Assembly: GCA_002010075.1 (NCBI GenBank)
Contig: MTMG01000005.1
Span: forward strand, 1-64,000
From: Methanomicrobia archaeon JdFR-19
GTDB taxonomy: Archaea; Halobacteriota; Methanosarcinia; DSM-18856; Methermicoccaceae
Direction of reading: 5' to 3'
DNA: 64,000 nucleotides
Part shown: positions 6,106-56,967 of the stretch, in pieces
How positions within the stretch are numbered: position 1 is the stretch's first letter
Layout of the letters: every line of letters starts with the position of its first letter
The notes under the pieces: generated by a model
The model's input: only the letters and a program-made list of their open reading frames with translations
What the model was told of the DNA's origin: nothing
The model's database searches: none
Translations under genes and position numbers: made by a program

Positions 6106-6175
6106 AAATATTAAGAATGAGAGTGGAGAGGGTAAATGATGCAAAATAAAGTTTGTGAGGGAGCGTAGTACTTCA

Positions 6176-7246
6176 ATGCATAGTAGTTCAGTGGAGACAA
6201 AGCTATCAAATATTTTGGAAAAGGCACTGTCTGAGCAGTCGCTCTCTCAGAAAGATGTTGAGCTGGTTCTTTCAGTAAGGAATATGGAAGATGTCTTTTC
6301 TGTTCTCGATGTTGCAAGAGAATTGAGGGAGAGACACTTTGGAAAAGAGGTCTTCGCCTATGGTTTTGTATATTATGATACGATGTGCAGAAACGACTGT
6401 CTTTTCTGTTATTATAGGAGGTCAAACAAAAAACCGCCCCGATACAAAAAGGATTTTGAAGAGGTTATCGAGCTTTCACATCTTCTCAAGAAATCTGGCG
6501 TGCATCTCATTGACCTGACACTTGGGGAGGACCCAGCTATCCACGACAAAGAAAAATTTGAGGAGATCATATCGCTGGCATCGACAATAAAAACAGATGT
6601 TGATATACCTGTGATGGTCTCACCCGGTGTAGTCCCAGAATGGGTAATAAAGGAGTTTTCTGAGGAGGGGATAGACTGGTACGCCTGCTATCAGGAAACT
6701 CACAATCCCGTGCTGTTCAGCAAATTGAGAATCAAACAGGACTACGACACAAGACTCAACGTTAAATTGAAGGCAAAGGAGTATGGCATGCTCATAGAAG
6801 ATGGTATGTTGCTTGGTGTTGGTGAGAGTATCTCAGACAGAGCACATTCAATTCTGGAAATGAAAAGGATAGGTGTTAATCAAGCAAGGTCGATGTGTTT
6901 TGTACCACAAGAGGGGACTCCGATGGAACATGTCCCTCCTCCATCTGTGCTTGAACAGATGCTGGCGATAGCAGCAACTCGTCTCGTCCATCCAGACAGA
7001 CTCATACCTGCATCACTCGATGTGTTTGGTGTCAACGGCCTCCAGCCGATGCTCTTGAGTGGTGCAAATGTTGTCACATCTCTTGTCTATCCAGAGACTG
7101 GACTGGCTGGAGTTGCAAACGCAACTCTGGATGTTGAGGAAGGGAGGAGGACACTCGAAGGAATTTCCCACTATATCCACGAACTTGGTCTGAAGATTGC
7201 AACAAGAAAAAGCTATGATAGATGGATGAAGAAGGAGAGAGAATGA
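6176..7246 (+). CDS. pylB: 3-methylornithine synthase PylB
   Basis: PylB is the radical SAM mutase that converts lysine to (3R)-3-methyl-D-ornithine, the first step of pyrrolysine biosynthesis. The iron-sulfur motif CRNDCLFCYYR is near residue 70. Family blocks follow in order: VDLTLGEDP-like (IDLTLGEDP), SPGVVPEWV, YQETHNPVLF, EDGMLLGVGE, FVPQEGTPME and RLIPASLDV. The ATG at 6176 gives 356 residues, close to the Methanosarcina protein; an in-frame GTG lies at 6155. The stop TGA overlaps the pylC start as ATGA, so the two are translationally coupled. Confidence 0.95.
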   Translation: MHSSSVETKLSNILEKALSEQSLSQKDVELVLSVRNMEDVFSVLDVARELRERHFGKEVFAYGFVYYDTMCRNDCLFCYYRRSNKKPPRYKKDFEEVIELSHLLKKSGVHLIDLTLGEDPAIHDKEKFEEIISLASTIKTDVDIPVMVSPGVVPEWVIKEFSEEGIDWYACYQETHNPVLFSKLRIKQDYDTRLNVKLKAKEYGMLIEDGMLLGVGESISDRAHSILEMKRIGVNQARSMCFVPQEGTPMEHVPPPSVLEQMLAIAATRLVHPDRLIPASLDVFGVNGLQPMLLSGANVVTSLVYPETGLAGVANATLDVEEGRRTLEGISHYIHELGLKIATRKSYDRWMKKERE

Positions 7247-8355
7247 GAGTCTGTGTGGTTGGCGGAAAACTTCAGGGAATAGAAGCACTCTATCTATCAA
7301 AAAAAGCTGGGTTTGAGAGTGTCTTGATAGACCGTTCATCAGATGTGCCAGGGAAATCACTTGCAGATGAGTTTGTATGCATGGATGCTTTGAAAGCATC
7401 AGACACAATCAGAAGTTGTGATGTAGTGGTTCCGGCATTTGAAGACCTGCAAGGGCTTATCAATCTCTCACACCTGTGTGAGCAGATGGGAGTGCCGATG
7501 TTATTTGATGAAAAATCTTACAGAATATCCTCGTCGAAAATAGAGTCAAATAAGTTCTTTGACACGATTGAAGTGCCCACGCCAAAATGGATTTTCAATA
7601 CGAAGCAAAAAAACAGTCTAAAATTTCCCGTGATTCTAAAGCCATCTGAGGGTAGTGGTAGTGAGGATGTGGTGGTTGCACATACTCCAGAAGAGTTCGA
7701 CTCATTGTACTGCAATGGAACGATTGCCCAAGAGTTCGTATCTGGACCATCTCTTTCGCTTGAACTGATAGGTGATGGGGAGGAGGTTGAGGGACTCGTC
7801 GTTACTCAGCTCGAGTTTGATGAAAACTATGACTGCAAAAGAGTATTTGCCCCTCATGAACTGCCAGAATACACAGAGGAATTGTTCTTTGAGTATTCTA
7901 TCAGGATTGGGAAAGAGCTCGGATTAAGAGGAGTGATGGATGTAGAAGCAATGATAAGGGGAAAGAAGCCTGAGATAATAGAGATAGATGCAAGGCTTCC
8001 AAGCCAGACTCCCACAGCTGTTCTCCACTGTTCAGATGTGAACATACTGGAAGAAACAATAACCACGTGGATAGATGGTAAGTTGAGCTTTAAAAGACCA
8101 AGGGTGAAGAGGGCGGTCATCTATGAACACGTGATTGTGGGAGATGGGGGGATGAAAAGTGTGGGAGAGCATGTCCTCGCAAGTGCAAGAAACCTGCAGA
8201 TTGTTGATAAGTTTCATGGAGCAGAGGAAGCAATCGTTGGAGAGGTACCAGAGGGATTGATAATAACGCTCATACTGGTTGGCAATGACCTCACCAAATT
8301 ATGGAAGAAAAGAGAGCAAGCAATTGATAGCATAATAAATAAATATGTTAGTTGA
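7243..8355 (+). CDS. pylC: 3-methylornithine-L-lysine ligase PylC
   Basis: PylC is an ATP-grasp ligase that joins 3-methylornithine to the epsilon-amino group of a second lysine, the second step of pyrrolysine synthesis. The N-terminal Rossmann-like part begins RVCVVGGKLQGIEALYLSKK. The ATP-grasp core carries PVILKPSEGSGSEDV, and the metal-binding region is DVEAMIRGKKPEIIEIDARL. The ATG at 7243 (370 residues) overlaps the pylB stop. The third biosynthesis gene, pylD, does not follow; the next genes are a small heat-shock protein and a phosphatase-like protein, so pylD must lie elsewhere. Confidence 0.94.
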   Translation: MRVCVVGGKLQGIEALYLSKKAGFESVLIDRSSDVPGKSLADEFVCMDALKASDTIRSCDVVVPAFEDLQGLINLSHLCEQMGVPMLFDEKSYRISSSKIESNKFFDTIEVPTPKWIFNTKQKNSLKFPVILKPSEGSGSEDVVVAHTPEEFDSLYCNGTIAQEFVSGPSLSLELIGDGEEVEGLVVTQLEFDENYDCKRVFAPHELPEYTEELFFEYSIRIGKELGLRGVMDVEAMIRGKKPEIIEIDARLPSQTPTAVLHCSDVNILEETITTWIDGKLSFKRPRVKRAVIYEHVIVGDGGMKSVGEHVLASARNLQIVDKFHGAEEAIVGEVPEGLIITLILVGNDLTKLWKKREQAIDSIINKYVS

Positions 8356-29345: not shown

Positions 29346-29451
29346 TTTCAATCCCTCCTTCCGGGCATTTATAAAGCCCATCATCATTCATTGTCTGGCT
29401 GTTTTGATGAAGAGTATTTTCTATATAATGGTTTCTCTAATATTATTATCG

Positions 29452-31038
29452 ATGGAAGCGTACACTTGGATAGCCAGCAAACTGAAGGAGAATCCACAAC
29501 TGGATATAGAGGCACTGAAGATAGAAGCTGCAAGATAGTTTGGACTGCGCAAGATTCCAAAGAACTCAGAGTTAATACCATATCTCAAAGACGTCGTGAA
29601 TATCGTAAAGAAGCCTACTAAGACCTCTTCAGGAGTTGCAGTTGTTGCTGTGATGTCGTCTCCAGCCCAGTGCCCACATGGGAGATGCGTACCATGCCCT
29701 GGGGGACCAGAATCCATTTTTGAATCTCCCCAAAGCTACACGGGTCTTGAGCCTGCTGCACGCAGAGGCAGAGAAAGTGGATTTGACCCATATGTGCAGT
29801 GTGTTAGGAGACTATCTCAGCTTGAAAAAATGGGACACCCAATTACAAAGGTGAAGCTCATAGTAATGGGTGGTACATTCACTGCAAGGCCCATCGAATA
29901 CCAGAGATGGTTTGTTGGTGAGGCTCTCAGAGCCATGAACGAGTATGTTGTGAACGATGGAGAGCAAAAGATCAATACCCAACCCAGGTCTCAGGGCGCT
30001 ATGAGTGAGAGTGAGTTGGAGAGAATAAAAAACGAGAATGCAGATGCAGAAGTCAGATGTGTTGGAATCACACTTGAAACAAGACCAGACTGGGCAGATG
30101 AAAGAAGGATTGACGACATACTCTCACTCGGAACAACAAAAGTGGAGATAGGAGTACAATCGATATATGAGGATGTGCTTGCAAGAATCAAAAGAGGGCA
30201 TGGTGTGAAAGAGACTATCGAGGCAAACAGAGCTTTGAGAGATAGCTGTTTGAAGGTTGGATTCCACATAATGCCCGGGCTTCCCGGCTCGTCTCTCGAC
30301 AGAGATATCGAGATGATGAAAGAGCTGTTTTCGTCAGAGGACTTTCGACCAGACCATCTAAAAATATACCCCACTCTTGTACTCGAGGACACTGAACTGT
30401 ATGGGTGGTGGAAGAAAGGAGAATACAAGCCGTTTGATATTGAAGAGGGGATAGAATTTCTTTGTGCTGTTAAGCAGATACTTCCTCCATGGGTTAGAAT
30501 CTCAAGAATCCAAAGAGATATCCCATCCAACCTTGTGGTGGCTGGCATCAAGAAGAGTAATCTCAGACAGATTGTAAAGGAGGAAATGAAAAAGAGGGGG
30601 ATCAGATGCAGATGTATAAGATGTCGTGAGGTTGGGTATTATGGTGGAAAAGTGAGTCCAGAGCTGAGAGTGGAAAGTTATGAGGTGTGTGGTGGTGTTG
30701 AGAACTTCATATCATACGAGGATGTTGAAAAGGATGTGCTTGTTGGATTTCTCAGATTGAGATACCCTTGTTCCCCTCATCGACCAGAACTAAAGAACTC
30801 TGCACTTGTCAGAGAACTTCATGTGTACGGTAGAATGGTCGATGTCGGAAAGTTCCCCTCAGATAAAGAATGGCAACATCGTGGAGCAGGTGCAATGTTG
30901 CTTGAGAGAGCGGAGATGATGGCAGAGGATGAAGGTTTCAAAAGAATAGCTGTTATGAGCGGGGTGGGTGTGAGAAGATACTATGAATCGCTTGGATACA
31001 GAAGAGAGGGTCCTTACATGGTGAAGAATCTCAGATGA
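29452..31038 (+). CDS. elp3: Elongator-like protein Elp3 (tRNA cm5U34 synthase), with one in-frame TAG
   Basis: The 528-residue enzyme uses a radical SAM domain and a C-terminal GNAT acetyltransferase domain to make carboxymethyl-type modifications at wobble uridine 34. The cluster motif is CPHGRCVPCPGGP, and the acetyl-CoA site is near WQHRGAGAMLLERAE. TAG at 29536-29538 is residue 29, in the N-terminal tRNA-binding helix (ALKIEAAR-O-FGLRKIPKNSELI). That helix is a conserved part of archaeal Elp3, so a start after TAG (GTG at 29596) would truncate it. An alternative ATG lies at 29428. The stop is TGA. Confidence 0.93.
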
Positions 31039-32735: not shown

Positions 32736-33077
32736 TCAAAGGAGTTTTAGATTTCCCGCAACCTTTTCAAGTTTATCCTCTTCATCAGGCCCGAGACCGA
32801 GTGAAGTTTTTGTGGAGGGGGGGAGCTGAGTGTATCCTGCATCCTCCACCAGAAACGCAGGTATTTTCATCTCCCTCGCTTTTTTGAAGATTTCCAAAAG
32901 CTCTCGTTCGGAAGATACTTTAACTACTATCTTCTTCTGCCCCTCATCAAGCCATTTCTATCTAACATCACGCGGTGCCACCAACATCGCAGATATAGAT
33001 GCATGTGCAACCTGTGCAGCAAGCTTTCCCTTTCCCATCCTGAGGTCACTCCTCACCGCTATGTACTGCTTGTACAT
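32736..33077 (-). CDS. pth2: Peptidyl-tRNA hydrolase Pth2, with one in-frame TAG
   Basis: Pth2 (113 residues) releases peptides from prematurely dropped peptidyl-tRNA. Family signs are [22 protein letters not shown], then [16 protein letters not shown] and [17 protein letters not shown], ending GNLKLL. TAG at 32958-32960 is residue 40, between the first helix and KWLDEGQKK (DVR-O-KWLDEG). Both halves are needed for the fold and no ordinary frame joins them. The ATG at 33077 has a GAGAGAGG ribosome-binding site. The stop is TGA. It is the first gene of a pth2-scpA-scpB run. Confidence 0.92.
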
Positions 33078-33088
33078 ACTACCCTCTC

Positions 33089-34543
33089 TCAGGAATTCCA
33101 TTTCTTAATTATATCTGGTATATATCCTATCACATCTGTAGCGAGTAATGAAATCCCCTTCCTCTCGAATGCCATATCTCCTGCCAAACCGCATACAAAC
33201 GCTGATGCACACGCTACCTTCATCGGCTCATCTCTCACAAGAAAAGCACCAACAATGCCTGCAAGCACATCTCCAGTCCCGCCTACGGTCATCCCAACGT
33301 TCCCTGTGAGGTTAAATCTCTCGTTCTCGCCATCAGAAACCACATCCACCTTTCCCTTTGTGAGTACAACACATCCAGTAGAGTTTGCAACTTTCTTTGT
33401 AAGTTCAATCCTCCTATCAAGAGTGTCTGACTCTGTGACTGATAGAATTCTCAAAAGCTCCCCAAAGTGGGGGGTCAATACAAACTCTCCCTCGACCTCT
33501 TCCAACTCAACCGCTCTTAGTCCATCTGCATCAACAACACACCTCTTCACAGACTCTATTATCTGGCGAACTGCCTCCACTGTTTCGTCGTTATCTCCGA
33601 GGCCGTTGCCAATCACAACAACATGATGTCTCTTTGCAAGTTCAATAACCTCATCCACATGCTCTGTTTTCAGTATTTCCCCATCGAGAGGATGTACTAT
33701 TAAGTTAGGGGAGAAAGAAGCAACCACATCTGAAACTGATGAAGGTACTGCAACACTCACAACATCCACTCCACAAGAAAGAGCAGAAAGACCCACAAGT
33801 GCTGGAGCGCCCGTATATGGGCCACCTCCCACAACCAGCACCTTACCGCCGTCTCCCTTGTGTTTTCTCACTCGCTTTTTGAGAGTTGTGAGGTCACCGG
33901 GACCTATCAGTCGCTCGAAGTCTGGTGGGACTCCTATGCCTGCAACAACAACCTTCCCAGCCCTTTCGCCTTCCGGCTCATAAAAAATAGGCTTTGGTGC
34001 ATGAAGCGTCACTGTTATGGTTGCCCTGACACTCTTATCGCACACCCCCCCATCTGGATTGAGGCCACTCGGAACATCCACTGCAACAACATCGCCACCA
34101 AACGAATTTATCAGATCTATGGCACTCGATACCGGCTCCCTGATTTTTCCCCTCACACCAGTCCCGAGCAGGCCATCCACGACCACATCGTAATCTGAGA
34201 TGTCTATGTCGTCCAAGTCAGAGGGGTCTTTTATATGAAACACCCTTACTCTTGAGATCTCATTCAATAGAGGTTCAAGATTCTAACGCATCTCATCACT
34301 CATCTCACCTGTGCCGACTAAAAAGACATCAACATCAAATGGGATGTGTCTCGCTGCAACAAGGGCATCTCCACCATTGTTCCCATACCCCGCAAACACT
34401 GCCACCTTCCCCCCTCCACACACATCCTTAACAGCATCTGCAACAGCCCTTCCAGCGTTCTCCATGAGTCTCAAAGTATCTATTCCGAAGAACTTACAGT
34501 TTTCATCCAGTCTTCTCATATCCTCTGAACTCATGACTCTCAT
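33089..34543 (-). CDS. nnr: Bifunctional NAD(P)H-hydrate epimerase/dehydratase, with one in-frame TAG
   Basis: The 484-residue protein repairs damaged NADHX and NADPHX. The N-terminal epimerase (YjeF-N) shows [12 protein letters not shown] and [18 protein letters not shown]. The C-terminal dehydratase (YjeF-C, ribokinase-like fold) shows [25 protein letters not shown] and [20 protein letters not shown] at 34283-34285 is residue 87, inside the epimerase ([16 protein letters not shown]). The epimerase then continues with [16 protein letters not shown], so TAG falls in the middle of one domain. The stop is TGA. Confidence 0.92.
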
Positions 34544-34594
34544 ACACACCAATCTAAAACATCATATATATAAGAAAGCATCAAATATCTGAAG

Positions 34595-40530: not shown

Positions 40531-40846
40531 GGGTGGGCTAGTCCGGGCAGCTCGGCGTTGCCTGTAACCCGAAATCGTCGATATGCGGGGGACGAAGGCC
40601 TGCGGGAGGCACAGGCTCTTTTCGCAACAGCCCATGCATCTGACTGAGAAGTCCCGTCCCATGGGGATGGTGCTGTCATAGGGGCTTGCCGGAGGGCATG
40701 TCTCTATGGCTTAACCATGGGAAACGGCTCAGGCCCGGAAGGGAGCAGGCTTACCATGGGCAACCATCGCTCATGGGGTTGCGGGATGGAGGAAGATGCA
40801 TGGTGTCTGGGCGGAGAGAGTGGTGTCGACTGCAGGATGCCCACCC
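40531..40846 (+). ncRNA. ffs: Signal recognition particle 7S RNA
   Basis: The 5' end GGGTGGGC pairs with GCCCACCC at the 3' end (helix 1). The Alu-domain part is near the 5' end, with the GCTCGGCGTTGCCTGTAACC region. The conserved S-domain helix 8 core is present as GGCCCGGAAGGGAGCAGG preceded by GGAAACGGCTCA. The length of about 316 bases fits archaeal SRP RNA. It is the scaffold for SRP19 and SRP54 in co-translational membrane targeting. No protein gene overlaps it. Confidence 0.95.
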
Positions 40847-49839: not shown

Positions 49840-50550
49840 TTATCCTCTGTTTTTTGGTACCAACTCAACACCAGATATCCCAATTGATGCTTTTTGAATG
49901 ACTTTTTTGGGTGTTTCACTCAGAATTTCCCTGACTTCATGCCTATCAAGAGAGAGAAGAGACCCAATACTCTCAAACTCCTGTGGGGTTCTGAGCTCAT
50001 ATACGTTGGTGGCACCACTGCCAAGCAATAGCGGAAAACCAAATTTCCTCCACAATTTTATACACATTCTGTAGTCTGAAATGACCTCGGCTCTATGCAA
50101 GCCCTTTGTTCTCAACAACGTTGTCGAGGTGAGTGCAACAGCAACACTGTTCTTCTTTGCAGTTCTTGCAAGCACGTGATTCATTTTTGGTTCTATGAGT
50201 ATATCAACCCCTCTGGACTCTAGGGCAGCCCTACTCACTTTTGGATTCGTTCCCTTCACTGCTACCAGTCCTTTGGACCTCATGATGGTGGGACGAAGCA
50301 TTCTCAAAATCTTGTGCATTTCTGAAACGGTATCGGTCTCTATGAGGATTCCAAAATTGACATTCGCACTTGCTGACCTCATTGACTCAAATTCCATACT
50401 CTCAAATTCATCGACTTTCAGAAGCACACCCACCCTTGCAAACCCCATCTCAATCGCATCATCGATGAGGTCAGATGACATCAAACACAGGTCTGCAAAC
50501 CCGTTGAATTTTGTGCTGGAGCTTTGCATTTCTGTCATCTCTTCTATCAT
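49840..50550 (-). CDS. rnp3: RNase P protein component 3 (Rpp30)
   Basis: The 236-residue TIM-barrel protein is the archaeal Rpp30 homologue that supports RNase P RNA in 5' tRNA maturation. Visible blocks are FADLCLMSSDLIDDAIEMG, VDILIEPKMNHVLARTAKK, VAVALTSTTLLRTKG and the C-terminal GATNVYELRTPQEFESIGSLL. The ATG overlaps the stop of the upstream exosome-associated gene. This L15e-exosome-Rpp30 order is conserved in archaea. The stop is TAA. Confidence 0.93.
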   Translation of the reverse strand: MIEEMTEMQSSSTKFNGFADLCLMSSDLIDDAIEMGFARVGVLLKVDEFESMEFESMRSASANVNFGILIETDTVSEMHKILRMLRPTIMRSKGLVAVKGTNPKVSRAALESRGVDILIEPKMNHVLARTAKKNSVAVALTSTTLLRTKGLHRAEVISDYRMCIKLWRKFGFPLLLGSGATNVYELRTPQEFESIGSLLSLDRHEVREILSETPKKVIQKASIGISGVELVPKNRG

Positions 50551-50999
50551 CTCCTCAACCTACAGAATATCTCTTTCGCTCTCCTCAACGACCCCTCTTT
50601 ACTTTGCGGATAGGATGGAATCTTCATCTTAATGACGATCGAGTCTGCACCTCTCGTTAATGAAACATTTCCGAGATATGCTTCCTGCTTTCCGATTCTT
50701 ATGTGAAGTACACCAAACTCATCCATTCTCTCATCGAGTTCGGAACAAAGTAAATCCAAGTCCTCTTCTGACAAACTTCTCACAAAACTCTCGATAAATT
50801 CCTTTATTTGTTTCTTTTTGACAAGCTCAATCTCTATCACATGAATGGGATTTCCATGGTATCCTTCGTACTTCCTCATCTCACACTGTGTATCTTCTGG
50901 AAGAATTAGCTGAAGTGCTTTCTACACCTTTTCAACACTCTCTGTAGCTTGGACCGTTGTAAGAATTGTTACCTTCCCAAACTCTTGCCCGCCACTCAC
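50547..50999 (-). CDS. Predicted exosome-associated RNA-binding protein (COG1325), with one in-frame TAG
   Basis: The 150-residue protein starts with GTG overlapping the L15e stop (GTGA). Family blocks are TILTTVQATESVEKV, then YEGYHGNPIHVIEIELV, LDERMDEFGVLHIRIGKQEAYLG and a C-terminal helix. TAG at 50922-50924 is residue 26 (ESVEKV-O-KALQLILPED), in the first helix. Without readthrough the start would fall just before GYHGNP and the N-terminal strand and helix would be lost. A role in RNA processing is presumed from context only. The stop is TGA. Confidence 0.88.
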
Positions 51000-51607: not shown

Positions 51608-52543
51608 TTAAAGCTTTTCTTCTAATTTCTCAACAATGCGCTCTGAAGGGACAGCATTCTGATGCAAACCAGCATCGTAATTCAATGAGAGAGCAATGAA
51701 CTGGGAAATGTGGAGTACTGGTATCTCAATATTCATTCCCTCCTTCCGCAAGATTGCCTGCCCTTGGTCAAGCTGTAGATGACAGAATGGGCACGAATTC
51801 ACAACACAATCAACATCCGCATCCTTCAGACTCTCAAGCTTTCTCCTTGTGAAGGTGAGAGCAAGCTCCTTGGAAGATGAACGGACGCCGCCCCCTGCAC
51901 CACAACACAGCATCTTGTCATCATACTCAACACTCTCAGCTCCAACCACCTCAACGATTTCGTCCAGCATTCTCGGATTCTCTGGAGAATCCACCCTCAA
52001 TATCGAGCTTGGTCTTGTCAGATGACACCCGTAGTGAACACCCACTCTAAGTCTCAACCTCCTCTCCATCACCTCCTTTATCCTATCAAGCGAGGAGTAG
52101 AGTATCTCAACGAGATGTTTGACTTCAACATCTCCCCTGTATTCCCTTCCAATCGCTTTGAGGTGTTGGTTGATATTGTCCCTGACTTCATGATTCTTGA
52201 GTATCACGCTCGCCTCCTTCAACGTTGAGAAACACCCATTGCAAATCGTAATTATTTCCCTGCCCTCTGCAAGAGACAAGTTCCTTGCTGAGAGTGTGAG
52301 CCATGTGAGTTCATCAAACGACCTGACGATGCCAGGGGGTGGACAACAGGAAGCTTCTTCCATGACTTCATAGCCTATGCCCAACTTATCAAGTACGAGT
52401 TCGGTACACGACTCGATTGCAGGGTATCTATTTGGGGCAATACATCCAAGAAAGAGAGAGAACTCGGGGTCAGATGATTGGGATGTGGGAGATGTCAGAT
52501 CAGACGATTTTGACTTATGTGATTTCGAATCAGATGATTTCAA
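51608..52543 (-). CDS. hdrB: Heterodisulfide reductase subunit B (HdrB) with a Ser-rich N-terminal extension
   Basis: The 311-residue protein carries the two CCG-type cysteine motifs that hold noncubane [4Fe-4S] clusters for splitting CoM-S-S-CoB: CNGCFSTL with CCPPPG, and MLCCGAGGGVR with CPFCHLQLD. The usual start pattern FLGCIAPNRYPAIE appears only after about 27 Ser/Lys/Asp-rich residues. These are encoded by imperfect repeats of TCATCTGA and begin with TTG. No better start is visible. It lies two bases after hdrC. The stop is TAA. Confidence 0.92.
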   Translation of the reverse strand: MKSSDSKSHKSKSSDLTSPTSQSSDPEFSLFLGCIAPNRYPAIESCTELVLDKLGIGYEVMEEASCCPPPGIVRSFDELTWLTLSARNLSLAEGREIITICNGCFSTLKEASVILKNHEVRDNINQHLKAIGREYRGDVEVKHLVEILYSSLDRIKEVMERRLRLRVGVHYGCHLTRPSSILRVDSPENPRMLDEIVEVVGAESVEYDDKMLCCGAGGGVRSSSKELALTFTRRKLESLKDADVDCVVNSCPFCHLQLDQGQAILRKEGMNIEIPVLHISQFIALSLNYDAGLHQNAVPSERIVEKLEEKL

Positions 52544-52545
52544 TC

Positions 52546-52953
52546 TTACCCACCCCCGATAAGAGACTCGAATCCAGTGAGTTTCAGAAGGGTTTTGACT
52601 TCCTCAGCACACTTCTCTCTCTTTCTTGGAAGCCCGAGTTCCTCTCTGAGTTCTCCACTCTTTTCATTCCATGGAACAATTCTACCACTCTCGATGAGTT
52701 TCAGAGCAGCCTCCCTGTGCGACTCAAATATTTTCCCTTCTCTGACAAGTTCGTTCCTTATTTCTATTATACGCTCAACCACCTTTATCTCCCTTGGACA
52801 TCTCTCTTCACACTGATAGCACGTTACACATGCCCATACATCCTCCATTGTATTGACTTCTCCACCAACCACCCTTCTTGTAACAAGTGGTGTGTACCAT
52901 CCAGAAGGACATGAAGCAGTACAAATTCCACAGTGTATGCACACATCGTTCAT
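52546..52953 (-). CDS. hdrC: Heterodisulfide reductase subunit C (HdrC)
   Basis: The 135-residue protein has two [4Fe-4S] motifs, CIHCGICTASCP and CVTCYQCEERCP. It passes electrons to HdrB during reduction of the CoM-S-S-CoB heterodisulfide. It is short at the N-terminus compared with many HdrC proteins, beginning directly at the first cluster. The hdrA subunit is not in the window. It is divergent from pylT and ends TAA. Confidence 0.93.
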   Translation of the reverse strand: MNDVCIHCGICTASCPSGWYTPLVTRRVVGGEVNTMEDVWACVTCYQCEERCPREIKVVERIIEIRNELVREGKIFESHREAALKLIESGRIVPWNEKSGELREELGLPRKREKCAEEVKTLLKLTGFESLIGGG

Positions 52954-52998: not shown

Positions 52999-53067
52999 GG
53001 AGGGTCGGTCGGGAAGACCACACGGACTCTAACTCCGTGCAGCCGGGTTTGACTCCCGGACCCTTCG
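52999..53067 (+). tRNA. pylT: tRNA-Pyl (anticodon CTA)
   Basis: The 69-base RNA has the odd features known for tRNA-Pyl. The acceptor GGAGGGT pairs with ACCCTTC (one G-T pair), and a single base precedes the D stem. The D arm is GGTC-GGGAA-GACC with a five-base loop. A single base precedes a six-base-pair anticodon stem, CACGGA-CTCTAAC-TCCGTG, with CTA in the loop. The variable loop is the three bases CAG. The T arm CCGGG-TTTGACT-CCCGG lacks the usual TTC. The discriminator is G. It decodes UAG and is charged by PylSn/PylSc, encoded next to it. Confidence 0.96.
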
Positions 53068-53087
53068 CCTTTTGGAAAGGTGATGAT

Positions 53088-53366
53088 GTGAAAGAGGATT
53101 ATGAAACACCATTCAAACTTGCAAAGAAATACATGGTATGGGTTTCGAGGTCAGGACTACTCCATGAACTCACCAGTATCGAGCTTAAAGGCAGAACTGT
53201 GATCATGCATTCAAAATGCGGGCAGATTCTCAAAGCCAGCAACTCAAGAAGGTCAAGGGCAGCAAGATGGCTCAGACACAAATGGTACTACAAACCATGT
53301 AAAAGATGCAAGATACCTGACGAAAGGTTGAAGTCATTTGGTGGAAGGATGTTGAGAAAGGTATGA
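53088..53366 (+). CDS. pylSn: PylSn, tRNA-binding N-terminal domain of pyrrolysyl-tRNA synthetase, as a separate gene
   Basis: The 92-residue protein matches the N-terminal domain of Methanosarcina PylS: LHELTSIELKGRTVIMHSKCG, then NSRRSRAARWLRHKWYYKPC and CKRCKIPDERL. These carry the zinc-binding Cys residues and the basic surface that grips the T and variable arms of tRNA-Pyl. The GTG start at 53088 follows AAAGGTGATG. It lies about 20 bases after pylT and ends TGA 13 bases before the TTG alternative start of pylSc. A separate PylSn is the arrangement best known from bacteria; Methanosarcina has one fused protein. Confidence 0.95.
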   Translation: MKEDYETPFKLAKKYMVWVSRSGLLHELTSIELKGRTVIMHSKCGQILKASNSRRSRAARWLRHKWYYKPCKRCKIPDERLKSFGGRMLRKV

Positions 53367-53400
53367 GGAGGTCTGATTTTTGGAAGAGCATTCAGAAACG

Positions 53401-54225
53401 ATGGAATTCACACATACCCAGAAACAAAGGTTGGTTGAGTTGGGCGCTGATGATTTCATATCCATGAGATTCAAATCAAAAGATGAAAGAAACAAAAAAT
53501 TCGAGGAAATTGTGAAGAAAGTTGTGGCTGATACAAAAAGAAATCTTGAAATCATCAGAAGAATATCAAAAAGACCTTATTTAAAGATAATAGAGGACGA
53601 GATATCAAAGAAATTGAGGAAAAATGGGTTTATTGAGGTGAGTACTCCGATACTCATTAGAAAAGAAGCTCTGCAAAAGATGGGCATAGACGATGAGCAT
53701 CCGCTGATGAACCAGATTTTCTGGGTTGATGGGAATACATGCCTGAGACCGATGCTTGCTCCCAATCTCTACACGCTCTGGTCAAGGTTGAGAAACATAT
53801 GGAAACCACCGATATCCATATTTGAAGTCGGACCTTGTTTCAGAAGAGAATCCAAAGGCACACATCACACTCAAGAATTCACGATGCTGAACATAGCAGA
53901 ACTTTCTCCAGAAAAATCAGCTGAAGAGAGGCTCGTGGAGATTGCAAAACTCGTCATGGATGTGGTGGGGGTGGAGTACGAACTTGTGTGGGAGGAGTCC
54001 GAAGTCTATGGAGAAAGTCTGGATGTTGTTGTGAATGGTATTGAGGTGGCATCTGGTGCATTTGGTCCTCACAAACTCGATGAGAACTGGAACATCACAG
54101 AACCGTGGGCTGGAATCGGCTTCGGCCTTGAAAGACTTGTGCTTGCATGTGAAGGGGGGGCAAACATAACAAGGTTTTCAAGAAGTCTGATGTACCTCGA
54201 TGGATGGAGACTGGACATCAAATAA
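53401..54225 (+). CDS. pylSc: PylSc, catalytic domain of pyrrolysyl-tRNA synthetase, as a separate gene
   Basis: The 274-residue class II synthetase attaches pyrrolysine to tRNA-Pyl. Motif 2 is IFEVGPCFRRES, motif 3 is EPWAGIGFGLERL, and CLRPMLAPNLY is present. Compared with M. mazei PylRS, pocket residues equivalent to L305, Y306, N346 (MLNIAEL), Y384 (VYGESLDV) and W417 are kept. L309 is Trp and C348 is Ala here. The ATG at 53401 is preferred; a TTG at 53380 would add seven residues. The stop is TAA. Together with pylSn it replaces the fused PylS. Confidence 0.96.
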   Translation: MEFTHTQKQRLVELGADDFISMRFKSKDERNKKFEEIVKKVVADTKRNLEIIRRISKRPYLKIIEDEISKKLRKNGFIEVSTPILIRKEALQKMGIDDEHPLMNQIFWVDGNTCLRPMLAPNLYTLWSRLRNIWKPPISIFEVGPCFRRESKGTHHTQEFTMLNIAELSPEKSAEERLVEIAKLVMDVVGVEYELVWEESEVYGESLDVVVNGIEVASGAFGPHKLDENWNITEPWAGIGFGLERLVLACEGGANITRFSRSLMYLDGWRLDIK

Positions 54226-54239
54226 ATTGGGAGTCGTAA

Positions 54240-56015
54240 TCATGATGCTCGCTCATTCCAGTGGAGACCTACAATGGCAGCATCGGTTATATTGACCCAA
54301 TTGTCATTGTTCAGGTCAGCTCTATCATCATAATCTGCCTCTCCCCCACGAGCATTCCAGTGGAGACCCATCAAAGAGATGTCCAGTATGTTCACTCTGC
54401 CATCGCCATTTGCATCTCCTAACATGTATATCGTGATTTCGTACACAGTGGTATTGATGGCTCTGTTGTTATCGCATACGGTTAATGTGAGCGTGTAGGG
54501 CAAATACGTCCCATTAACACTATCCCAGCGGTATGAATCATACGTGTGGCTCACAACCTCGCCACTTGCTGTGTTGCCATCTCCGAAGTCCCACTCACAT
54601 GAAACATGTCCTCTGTCTCCTATCACAAGTATGCTCTGGTCAGGCTCTTTGATTACCACAGAACTCACCAGCCCCCCGTCCTGATAGTCCTCGAATTTGT
54701 AATCCCTCACGACCACCTAACCGCACTGGAAGAAATCTATTATGGTATATCCTTCATCTCCACCCCAATTTCCGCCCATATTTCTCGTATTTATGTACCA
54801 TATGGTGTTGTTTGTGCGGGTCTGTGCCACCCAATTGTGGTCTTGTGCCATGAACACTGCCAACACATTGGTACTCTCAAAAATCTCCCTCGCCTCTGAT
54901 GCATTTATATCCTAAATACTTTTGTGAGGCGAATCTATGTTGCCCGACATGAAAACAAGTATGGGGGTGTGGATGTTGCCAAATGTGTCGTTGAACCATT
55001 GCAGGTGACTTTCAAGAAGTTTGGAGTCAAAGAACACGAATATGTAATCTGGTGTACCATCTCCTTGGAGGTCGAGATAGTCCGTAAACGGATATTGACT
55101 CGAGTTCATAACATCCTCGTGAGTATCAGCCCATTCATCAAAACGAGGTTCTGTCCAGATTCCGATATGCGGGAACTCATGGTCACCTCTGGCGTACCAT
55201 CTATCACCACCGAAAGACGAGAAGTTGTCATACCATAAGTCTGCATAATAGGTGTGATTGGGTATATTATCATGTGGTACTGTCCATTCAAACGCATCTC
55301 CCAGAGCCACAAGCCCATCACACTCCATGCTTCTGAAGATTTGTAGAGCGTGTGGAAAACGAGACCAATTTCCTTGGGTTGAGCCGATGTGGATGTCAGC
55401 TACCAGTCCTATGCGGTAGGCAAGCGTTTCTGGGTCGTAGGAATCAGATGTGAATGTGATTGGGGCTCCCACATTGTTTACGGTGTGGTCAATATGGAAC
55501 AACGCAACCGGTGGAATGTTCAGATGTACAGTTGCATTCTGGAACGTGAGACTTAACTCGTCAGTTGTTGAGTTCAAAACCAGCGTGTGTTCTGGATCAA
55601 AAACAATGTGATACACGGTATCGGGATTTCCATTTTTCATGTAGAACGTAATATTGGTTATGATGCCCTCCCCCGAGATGCCAGTGGTTGTGTTAATCCT
55701 TGTTATCCCATAGTCAATTGTTCCGTTGATGTTATCGTATTCCTATGCCATCTCCTATGTTGTGTTGCCATCTGAGGAGAGGTATGTTGTATTGTTTAGG
55801 GATTTAACTTCAAAAACAGATGGGTCAAAGAGAATGCGATACTGAACTGCATATATATCCGTCCCATTAACAATGACTGAGAGGTTGAATTCAGAATTCT
55901 TTGAGACAACAAGTTCAGAAGGTTCGAGCTTTAATTCCTCACCATAACCAGTGGATGCCAGTATAATTGCAGAAAGCGCCAAGAGCATGACTGTAAGTTT
56001 CATCATCTTCCACAT
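54240..56015 (-). CDS. Secreted cohesin-PKD-metallophosphoesterase-dockerin protein, with four in-frame TAGs
   Basis: The 591-residue protein has a signal peptide (MMKLTVMLLALSAIILASTG). A cohesin-like domain follows (about 30-165, with YAVQYRILFDPSVFEVKSL). A calcineurin-like phosphoesterase is next (about 200-430: GLVADIHIG, VALGDAFEW, ARGDHE, MAQDHNW). Then comes a PKD half (CEWDFGDGNTASGEVVSHTY) and a C-terminal dockerin pair (GDANGDGRVNILDISLMGLH and ADLNNDNWVNITDAAIVGLH). TAGs lie at 55755-55757 (residue 87), 55743-55745 (91), 54909-54911 (369) and 54717-54719 (433), all in one frame. Only joined together do the cohesin and phosphoesterase folds become complete. Probably extracellular. 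The stop is TGA. Confidence 0.85.
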
Positions 56016-56082
56016 AACTAAGTGCAAAGAGGTGTACTTAACTCTTGTTGTGAAGATAGCATAAATAACCGAATCTATGAAG

Positions 56083-56967
56083 TCAATCAACTTTAGGTGC
56101 TTCCATCACCCTCGAATAGTACGGAAGGGATGCAACTGCCCCAATCACCCCATCGCCTTCAATGGGAAATCTCACACCGTTGTTTCTCAGCTCAAGAGCC
56201 TCCTCCAGCTCCACCCAACCATGCCTTGCTCTCCTTGAAAAATCGATGAGGTGGGAACAATCAAAACCAACCCACACCGCAACCCCTGTTTCATCAGACA
56301 ACGTATGTTCAAGTACAAGCTCACAAAATCTCCCCACCAGCTCATCTTCTTTTCCCCTAACACAGCCAAACTCAACCACTGTCGCTGTACAATTCTGTGT
56401 TTTTTTGGACACAGGATACAACTGAACGATTGCGTGGGAGAGGTACACAACATCCGAATTCTCCACAGCCTTGGCAATATTGTGTGCAAGAGCCCAAGTC
56501 GCACCCCTATCCTTGGAATCTGTGTTGTCAACACCTATCACAACCCTTCTCCTACCAACCAGCTCAAGCACACCTTCCGCATATTTCTCACCACCCGATG
56601 GGCTCAGCTTATGGGACACAACACCCTTTGCAAGAGCCCTGCATAGGGTCGCACCGACCCCGCCCCCACCAAGTCCACCATACGTGATAAAAACTCTATC
56701 ACTAACAACATCCACCTCCACAATTCCAGCAGCCTTATCTGGACTTCTGAACTCCTCCTCACATCTTCCCACTCTGACAAGGTATCTGAAAGAGTTGCCA
56801 CACTGCCTTGCCTCAATGACATTCTGACGTTTTGAATAGTGATGAATCGCCCACCCTCCACCGCCAAAACATGATGGGACTTCTATTAGCTCAACCAGTT
56901 CTTGATTCTCATGCACGATTGCGTGTATCTCTTGATACGGAACCACATATGGGTTCGGCATCATCAT
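56083..56967 (-). CDS. Methanogenesis marker protein 11
   Basis: The 294-residue protein is recognised from NPYVVPYQEIHAIVHENQELVELIE, the Gly-rich FGGGGWAIHHYS, and GVDNTDSKDRGATWALAHNIA. The last resembles the nucleotide site of tRNA-Ile agmatinyltransferase. The family is nearly confined to methanogens and relatives, and its reaction is unknown. It overlaps idsA at its own start and ends TGA 67 bases before the secreted-protein gene. Confidence 0.88.
   Translation of the reverse strand: MMMPNPYVVPYQEIHAIVHENQELVELIEVPSCFGGGGWAIHHYSKRQNVIEARQCGNSFRYLVRVGRCEEEFRSPDKAAGIVEVDVVSDRVFITYGGLGGGGVGATLCRALAKGVVSHKLSPSGGEKYAEGVLELVGRRRVVIGVDNTDSKDRGATWALAHNIAKAVENSDVVYLSHAIVQLYPVSKKTQNCTATVVEFGCVRGKEDELVGRFCELVLEHTLSDETGVAVWVGFDCSHLIDFSRRARHGWVELEEALELRNNGVRFPIEGDGVIGAVASLPYYSRVMEAPKVD

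Follow-up and report, generated by a model that had tools for sequence, protein, structure and literature searches.

The archaeon JdFR-19, a relative of Methanosarcinales from Juan de Fuca fluids, is represented by a published genome of 1,289 kb in 27 contigs (PMC5369317). As Guo et al. (2022) are cited in PMC9499178, separate pylSn and pylSc genes are present in seven archaeal genomes, with JdFR-19 and Ca. Hydrothermarchaeum profundi given by name; in the same account PylSc of these archaea is described as bacterial-like, and the fusion of both domains is placed in an ancestor of Methanosarcinaceae. The “Methanomicrobia archaeon” of Methanosarcinales is likewise assigned to the PylSn+PylSc class where PMC11764691 cites Guo 2022, while by the count of another study two archaeal PylRS have a separately encoded N domain (PMC7615293). 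The split PylRS of JdFR-19 and the later fusion in Methanosarcinaceae are thus already in print. Since the split enzyme of this organism has been published, the view of the initial annotation that a split archaeal pair is a new rarity had to be abandoned: as far as these secondary accounts go (PMC9499178, PMC11764691), the PylSn+PylSc class has been published with JdFR-19 as one of its examples, the same organism with the same split. To this published case the present analysis adds conservation in a second species, a corrected start site, the dispersed location of pylBC and pylD and a placement by five genes, along with evidence that the departure from the Methanosarcinaceae type extends beyond PylSc to the whole pyl set.

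The pylT-pylSn-pylSc unit of JdFR-19

The analysed window is a stretch of 64,000 nucleotides of the JdFR-19 genome, in which pylT, pylSn and pylSc follow each other head to tail:

52999..53069, forward strand: pylT, tRNA-Pyl(CUA), called by ARAGORN and identical in the genus-mate locus L035
53088..53366, forward strand: pylSn, tRNA-binding subunit of 92 aa with GTG start and TGA stop (TIGR03912; N-terminal domain of PDB 5ud5; dN/dS data)
~53368..53373, forward strand: GGAGGT, Shine-Dalgarno-like, 6 nt before TTG 53380 (sequence)
53380..54225, forward strand: pylSc, class II catalytic subunit of 281 aa with preferred start TTG 53380 (TIGR02367; PDB; dN/dS)

The pylSn frame matched TIGR03912 (PylS_Nterm) with 94.4 bits against a cut-off of 51.15, and its product aligned without gaps to the N-terminal domain of the Methanosarcina mazei enzyme (PDB 5ud5, E=4e-14). 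His26, Cys44, Cys73 and Cys76 of PylSn fall on positions of 5ud5 which we take to be the zinc ligands of the M. mazei protein. The pylSc frame covered the full TIGR02367 (PylS_Cterm) profile, 1-242 of 242, with 297.9 bits (cut-off 178.15); the nearest solved structure by sequence was PylSc of Desulfitobacterium hafniense (E ~1e-84), with that of M. mazei next behind. Profile searches across the whole JdFR-19 genome (1,288,683 bases, 27 contigs) returned one PylSn and one PylSc, both at the pylT locus, and no second copy of either over the cut-off. PylSn and PylSc lie in separate frames; the former is closed by the TGA at 53364-53366, and no reading frame runs through both. Separate genes for the two domains behind their tRNA, as initially annotated, are therefore confirmed by ARAGORN, both profiles and the lack of a joining frame, as is the position of pylSn by its profile score.

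The same arrangement was found in a genus-mate genome (G001, locus L035), with both subunits intact in both genomes. PylSn differed between them by 12 nucleotide changes, all silent, and no residue (dN 0, dS 0.25), and PylSc showed 57 nucleotide and 15 residue differences (dN 0.024, dS 0.28, dN/dS ~0.08); both subunits are conserved under selection. Regarding PylSc, which had been placed at 53401-54225, the catalytic frame and its end at 54225 hold and the start does not. ATG 53401 is ATT in G001, whereas TTG 53380 is kept there behind GGAGGT/GGGGGT; TTG 53380 is therefore the better candidate and probably the true start.

The tRNA-Pyl has an acceptor stem of 7 bp, one nucleotide ahead of the D-stem, a D-loop of 5 nt, an unbroken anticodon stem of 6 bp, a variable loop of 3 nt (CAG) and G73. 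The unbroken 6-bp anticodon stem would suit a tRNA that depends on the N domain, and not one of the delta-N kind.

Taken as a whole, the locus very probably encodes a working pyrrolysine aminoacylation unit, one that belongs to the already known PylSn+PylSc class of archaea. Its tRNA and both proteins probably share a transcript that starts in the short gap ahead of pylT. By analogy with characterised homologues, from which tRNA binding, charging and UAG decoding are deduced, the zinc domain of PylSn would hold tRNA-Pyl on the side of its T-arm and variable loop and so raise affinity, and the 3-nt variable loop may suit such binding. PylB, PylC and PylD would make pyrrolysine, a PylSc dimer would charge tRNA-Pyl with it, and the charged tRNA would decode UAG in MtmB, MttB and, in JdFR-19, also in ordinary genes.

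Upstream, HdrB/HdrC-like heterodisulfide reductase genes (window 51608-52953, reverse strand) are divergent from pylT across a gap of ~45 nt, which contains the TATA-like stretches TTTATATT and TTTATATA. Next to the downstream end of pylSc, the opposite strand encodes a large secreted protein of cohesin/PKD/dockerin type (54240-56090, reverse strand) with four in-frame TAG codons. An archaeal SRP RNA was identified elsewhere in the window (40531-40846, forward strand; Rfam RF01857, 236.5 bits).

Comparison with fused, split and truncated enzymes

Within the class, a profile search returned PylS over the cut-off in 103 of 238 genomes. Both domains were located in one frame in 36 of the 37 such loci inspected from other genera, the single exception (L039) being a truncated partial gene. 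Neither JdFR-19 nor its genus-mate has both domains in one open frame, the mark of a fused PylS; the marks of a split PylRS were found, namely PylSn with its own stop codon, a full-length separate PylSc and a cognate CUA tRNA-Pyl. The fused PylS of Methanosarcinaceae shares with the JdFR-19 pair the two domains, their order and the taxonomic class, but is a single polypeptide with a linker, has a catalytic domain only ~40% identical to PylSc and forms a separate clade. It should be added that one fused PylS of Methanosarcinaceae type (L036) lies in a genome of another family (G019, family f3), whose relatives lack it, and is close to L039 of family f6; it may represent a transfer or a misbinned contig.

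Gene order was surveyed at 80 named loci from public genomes. Among these, pylSn was directly upstream of pylSc in Hydrothermarchaeum (L072), in a Bathyarchaeota genome (L103) and in several Bacillota and Actinomycetota (L049-L053, L064, L066, L078), with pylT preceding pylSn in these adjacent units; the order pylT-pylSn-pylSc is therefore common to archaea and bacteria. Ca. Hydrothermarchaeum profundi JdFR-18 (L072) resembles JdFR-19 in this order, in a near-identical tRNA architecture and in carrying the closest PylB and PylC, although it belongs to another phylum and its PylSc is 52% identical. The bacterial split PylRS (D. hafniense; UBA2595, Thermincola) are similarly made of two polypeptides, with PylSc ~50% identical, and in some of them pylSn is directly upstream of pylSc; in many others, unlike in JdFR-19, it is downstream of pylSc, typically 3-4 kb off. 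Bacterial tRNA-Pyl genes, furthermore, have CCA encoded and differ from that of JdFR-19 in the D-arm and anticodon loop. The delta-PylSn enzymes of Methanomassiliicoccales have a related catalytic part (46-50%), but PylSn was not found in the loci examined, and their tRNA has a broken anticodon stem, in contrast to the unbroken one of JdFR-19.

One Thermoleophilia locus (L106) was considered as a fused bacterial PylS and rejected: a G-run in its pylSn marks a change of frame that breaks the gene (4480-5000 of L106, on a 4.6-Mb contig), and a normal stop precedes PylSc.

Identities of PylSc were ~40% to fused enzymes and ~50-54% to split ones, the best database matches being bacterial (UBA2595, 54%), whereas PylB and PylC had their best matches in Hydrothermarchaeum. 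The tRNA-Pyl was 85% identical to that of Hydrothermarchaeum, 79% to that of one Methanomassiliicoccus, 75-78% to those of bacteria with the same gene order and 68% to that of Methanosarcina.

Origin of the split pair

Three tree sets were analysed, comprising 101 rows for PylSc, 58 rows for PylSn+PylSc and 57 rows with 1327 columns for five genes. The fused enzymes formed one clade without JdFR-19, with support of 100/100, in both the PylSc and the PylSn+PylSc trees. PylSn by itself, with few columns and weak support, placed JdFR-19 between the fused clade and Hydrothermarchaeum, outside the bacterial group. The five-gene tree joined JdFR-19, Hydrothermarchaeum and Methanomassiliicoccales (90/99), the pair of JdFR-19 and Hydrothermarchaeum receiving 74/21. 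Together with the tRNA identities, this tree lends the overall pyl set an archaeal and not a bacterial appearance, a refinement of the statement that PylSc is bacterial-like. The phylogenies that had been proposed as a check thus set JdFR-19 apart from the fused enzymes, yet AU tests did not reject it as the sister of the fused clade (p 0.35 for PylSc, 0.30 for two genes and 0.16 for five genes). Monophyly of the archaeal enzymes with separate PylSn (p 0.38) and, for the two-gene set, archaea against bacteria as single clades (p 0.35) were not rejected either.

The pair had also been expected to be informative about the origin of the fused enzyme. This is so in kind, given the position of JdFR-19 outside the fused clade; the trees alone, which leave room for more than one root and more than one placement of JdFR-19, do not establish the split state as ancestral. 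One reading, with a probability slightly short of even, takes as ancestral the unfused adjacent pylT-pylSn-pylSc found in JdFR-19, Hydrothermarchaeum, the Bathyarchaeota genome and several deep lineages of bacteria. Neighbouring genes would then have been joined once to give the Methanosarcinaceae enzyme, and JdFR-19 would either keep an older archaeal-type pyl set or owe its set to a Hydrothermarchaeum-like donor. The JdFR-19 unit would thereby fix the architecture before fusion in the vicinity of Methanosarcinaceae.

The second of these routes, by which the pyl set was transferred from a Hydrothermarchaeum-like archaeon and not inherited vertically with Methanosarcinaceae, concerns origin only and is compatible with the functional assignment. 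The best matches of PylB and PylC, the higher tRNA identity to Hydrothermarchaeum than to Methanosarcina and the five-gene grouping point to it, and the same Juan de Fuca fluids yielded both genomes (PMC5369317). On the other hand, kinship with the fused clade was not rejected by the AU tests with any of the three sets, the pair of JdFR-19 and Hydrothermarchaeum received only 74/21, and a fast-evolving fused clade would look alike. Such a transfer is accordingly a serious possibility, though somewhat on the doubtful side.

Acquisition of the system from bacteria, likewise a matter of origin only, appears unlikely: the bacterial best matches of PylSc and the occurrence of the same gene order in bacteria speak for it, but both the five-gene set and the tRNA stand closer to archaea, and PylSn groups, if weakly, beside Hydrothermarchaeum and the fused clade. 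Even less credible is that the JdFR-19 pair arose when the fused enzyme of Methanosarcinaceae was recently split. JdFR-19 belongs to the same class and its gene order equals the domain order, but its exclusion from the fused clade at 100/100 means that its pair is not a lately divided Methanosarcina enzyme, in concordance with the lower identity of PylSc to fused than to split enzymes; the trees thus rule this origin out.

An assembly or sequencing frameshift hiding a real fused PylS, suggested by the short spacer (13 nt from stop to TTG) with its T-run, has a negligible chance and is ruled out by the genus-mate genome, where the same TGA ends PylSn and the spacer is longer by 2 nt (two T's), so that the two genomes differ in relative frame (+1 in the window, 0 in G001); moreover, a ribosome-binding-like site precedes pylSc and the Methanosarcina-type linker is lacking. 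With these different relative frames and TGA in both genomes, no one correction gives a fused frame in both, and the error between 53366 and 53401 that the initial annotation had named as fatal to the split does not hold in G001.

Remaining pyl genes and in-frame TAG codons

Further genes of the system and genes with in-frame TAG codons were located as follows:

6140..7246 (stop-to-stop frame; profile match 6197-7228), forward strand: pylB, radical SAM methylornithine synthase (TIGR03910, 417.6 bits)
7222..8355 (profile match 7246-8343), forward strand: pylC, ligase (TIGR03909, 334.6 bits)
50547..50999, reverse strand: PF01877 RNA-binding protein, in-frame TAG at codon 26, the codon also TAG in G001
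32736..33101, reverse strand: peptidyl-tRNA hydrolase PTH2, TAG in frame at codon 48, which falls within the domain match
29404-31038, 32736-33101 and 33089-34552 of the window, and 3231-5853 of L047: housekeeping genes (ELP3-like, PTH2, NAD(P)HX repair, ArgDC, CofH) with in-frame TAG

A profile search located pylD outside the window, on contig 18 (222.4 bits), and the JdFR-19 genome therefore contains pylB, pylC and pylD, with the pyl genes at three places: pylT-pylSn-pylSc, pylBC in the same window (~6.1-8.4 kb), which the initial annotation had left unmentioned, and pylD on the other contig.

An in-frame TAG occupies the conserved site of MttB and of one MtmB, in the latter within the motif MAIOAPETP. 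Furthermore, TAG was found inside the domain matches of PTH2, NAD(P)HX epimerase/dehydratase (YjeF_N), the PF01877 RNA-binding protein, CofH, pyruvoyl-dependent arginine decarboxylase (ArgDC) and an ELP3-like radical SAM protein. The occurrence of TAG in methyltransferases and several housekeeping genes indicates that TAG is read as sense, and on sequence grounds the code of JdFR-19 is a general TAG-sense one. This agrees with what had been proposed for the organism, TAG being placed inside conserved domains of unrelated genes and kept in PF01877 of G001; a complete split pair in an archaeon of Methanosarcinia that reads TAG as sense is likewise borne out by the profiles, the tRNA call and the in-frame codons. 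The residue inserted at TAG would be pyrrolysine, judging by the complete pyl set together with the CUA tRNA that the window encodes. As its host reads TAG widely as sense, the JdFR-19 pair may be useful as a natural PylRS/tRNA pair. Our literature search found no paper on a whole-genome Pyl code; an archaeal “Pyl code” was reportedly described in 2025.

Two MtmB-family proteins of JdFR-19 are encoded without in-frame TAG, one on contig 14 (L132, 15182-16522 of that contig) and one on contig 9 (38669-39991 of that contig), the former with Met at the pyrrolysine site. By comparison with MtgB in the MttB family, these may represent non-pyrrolysine MtmB.
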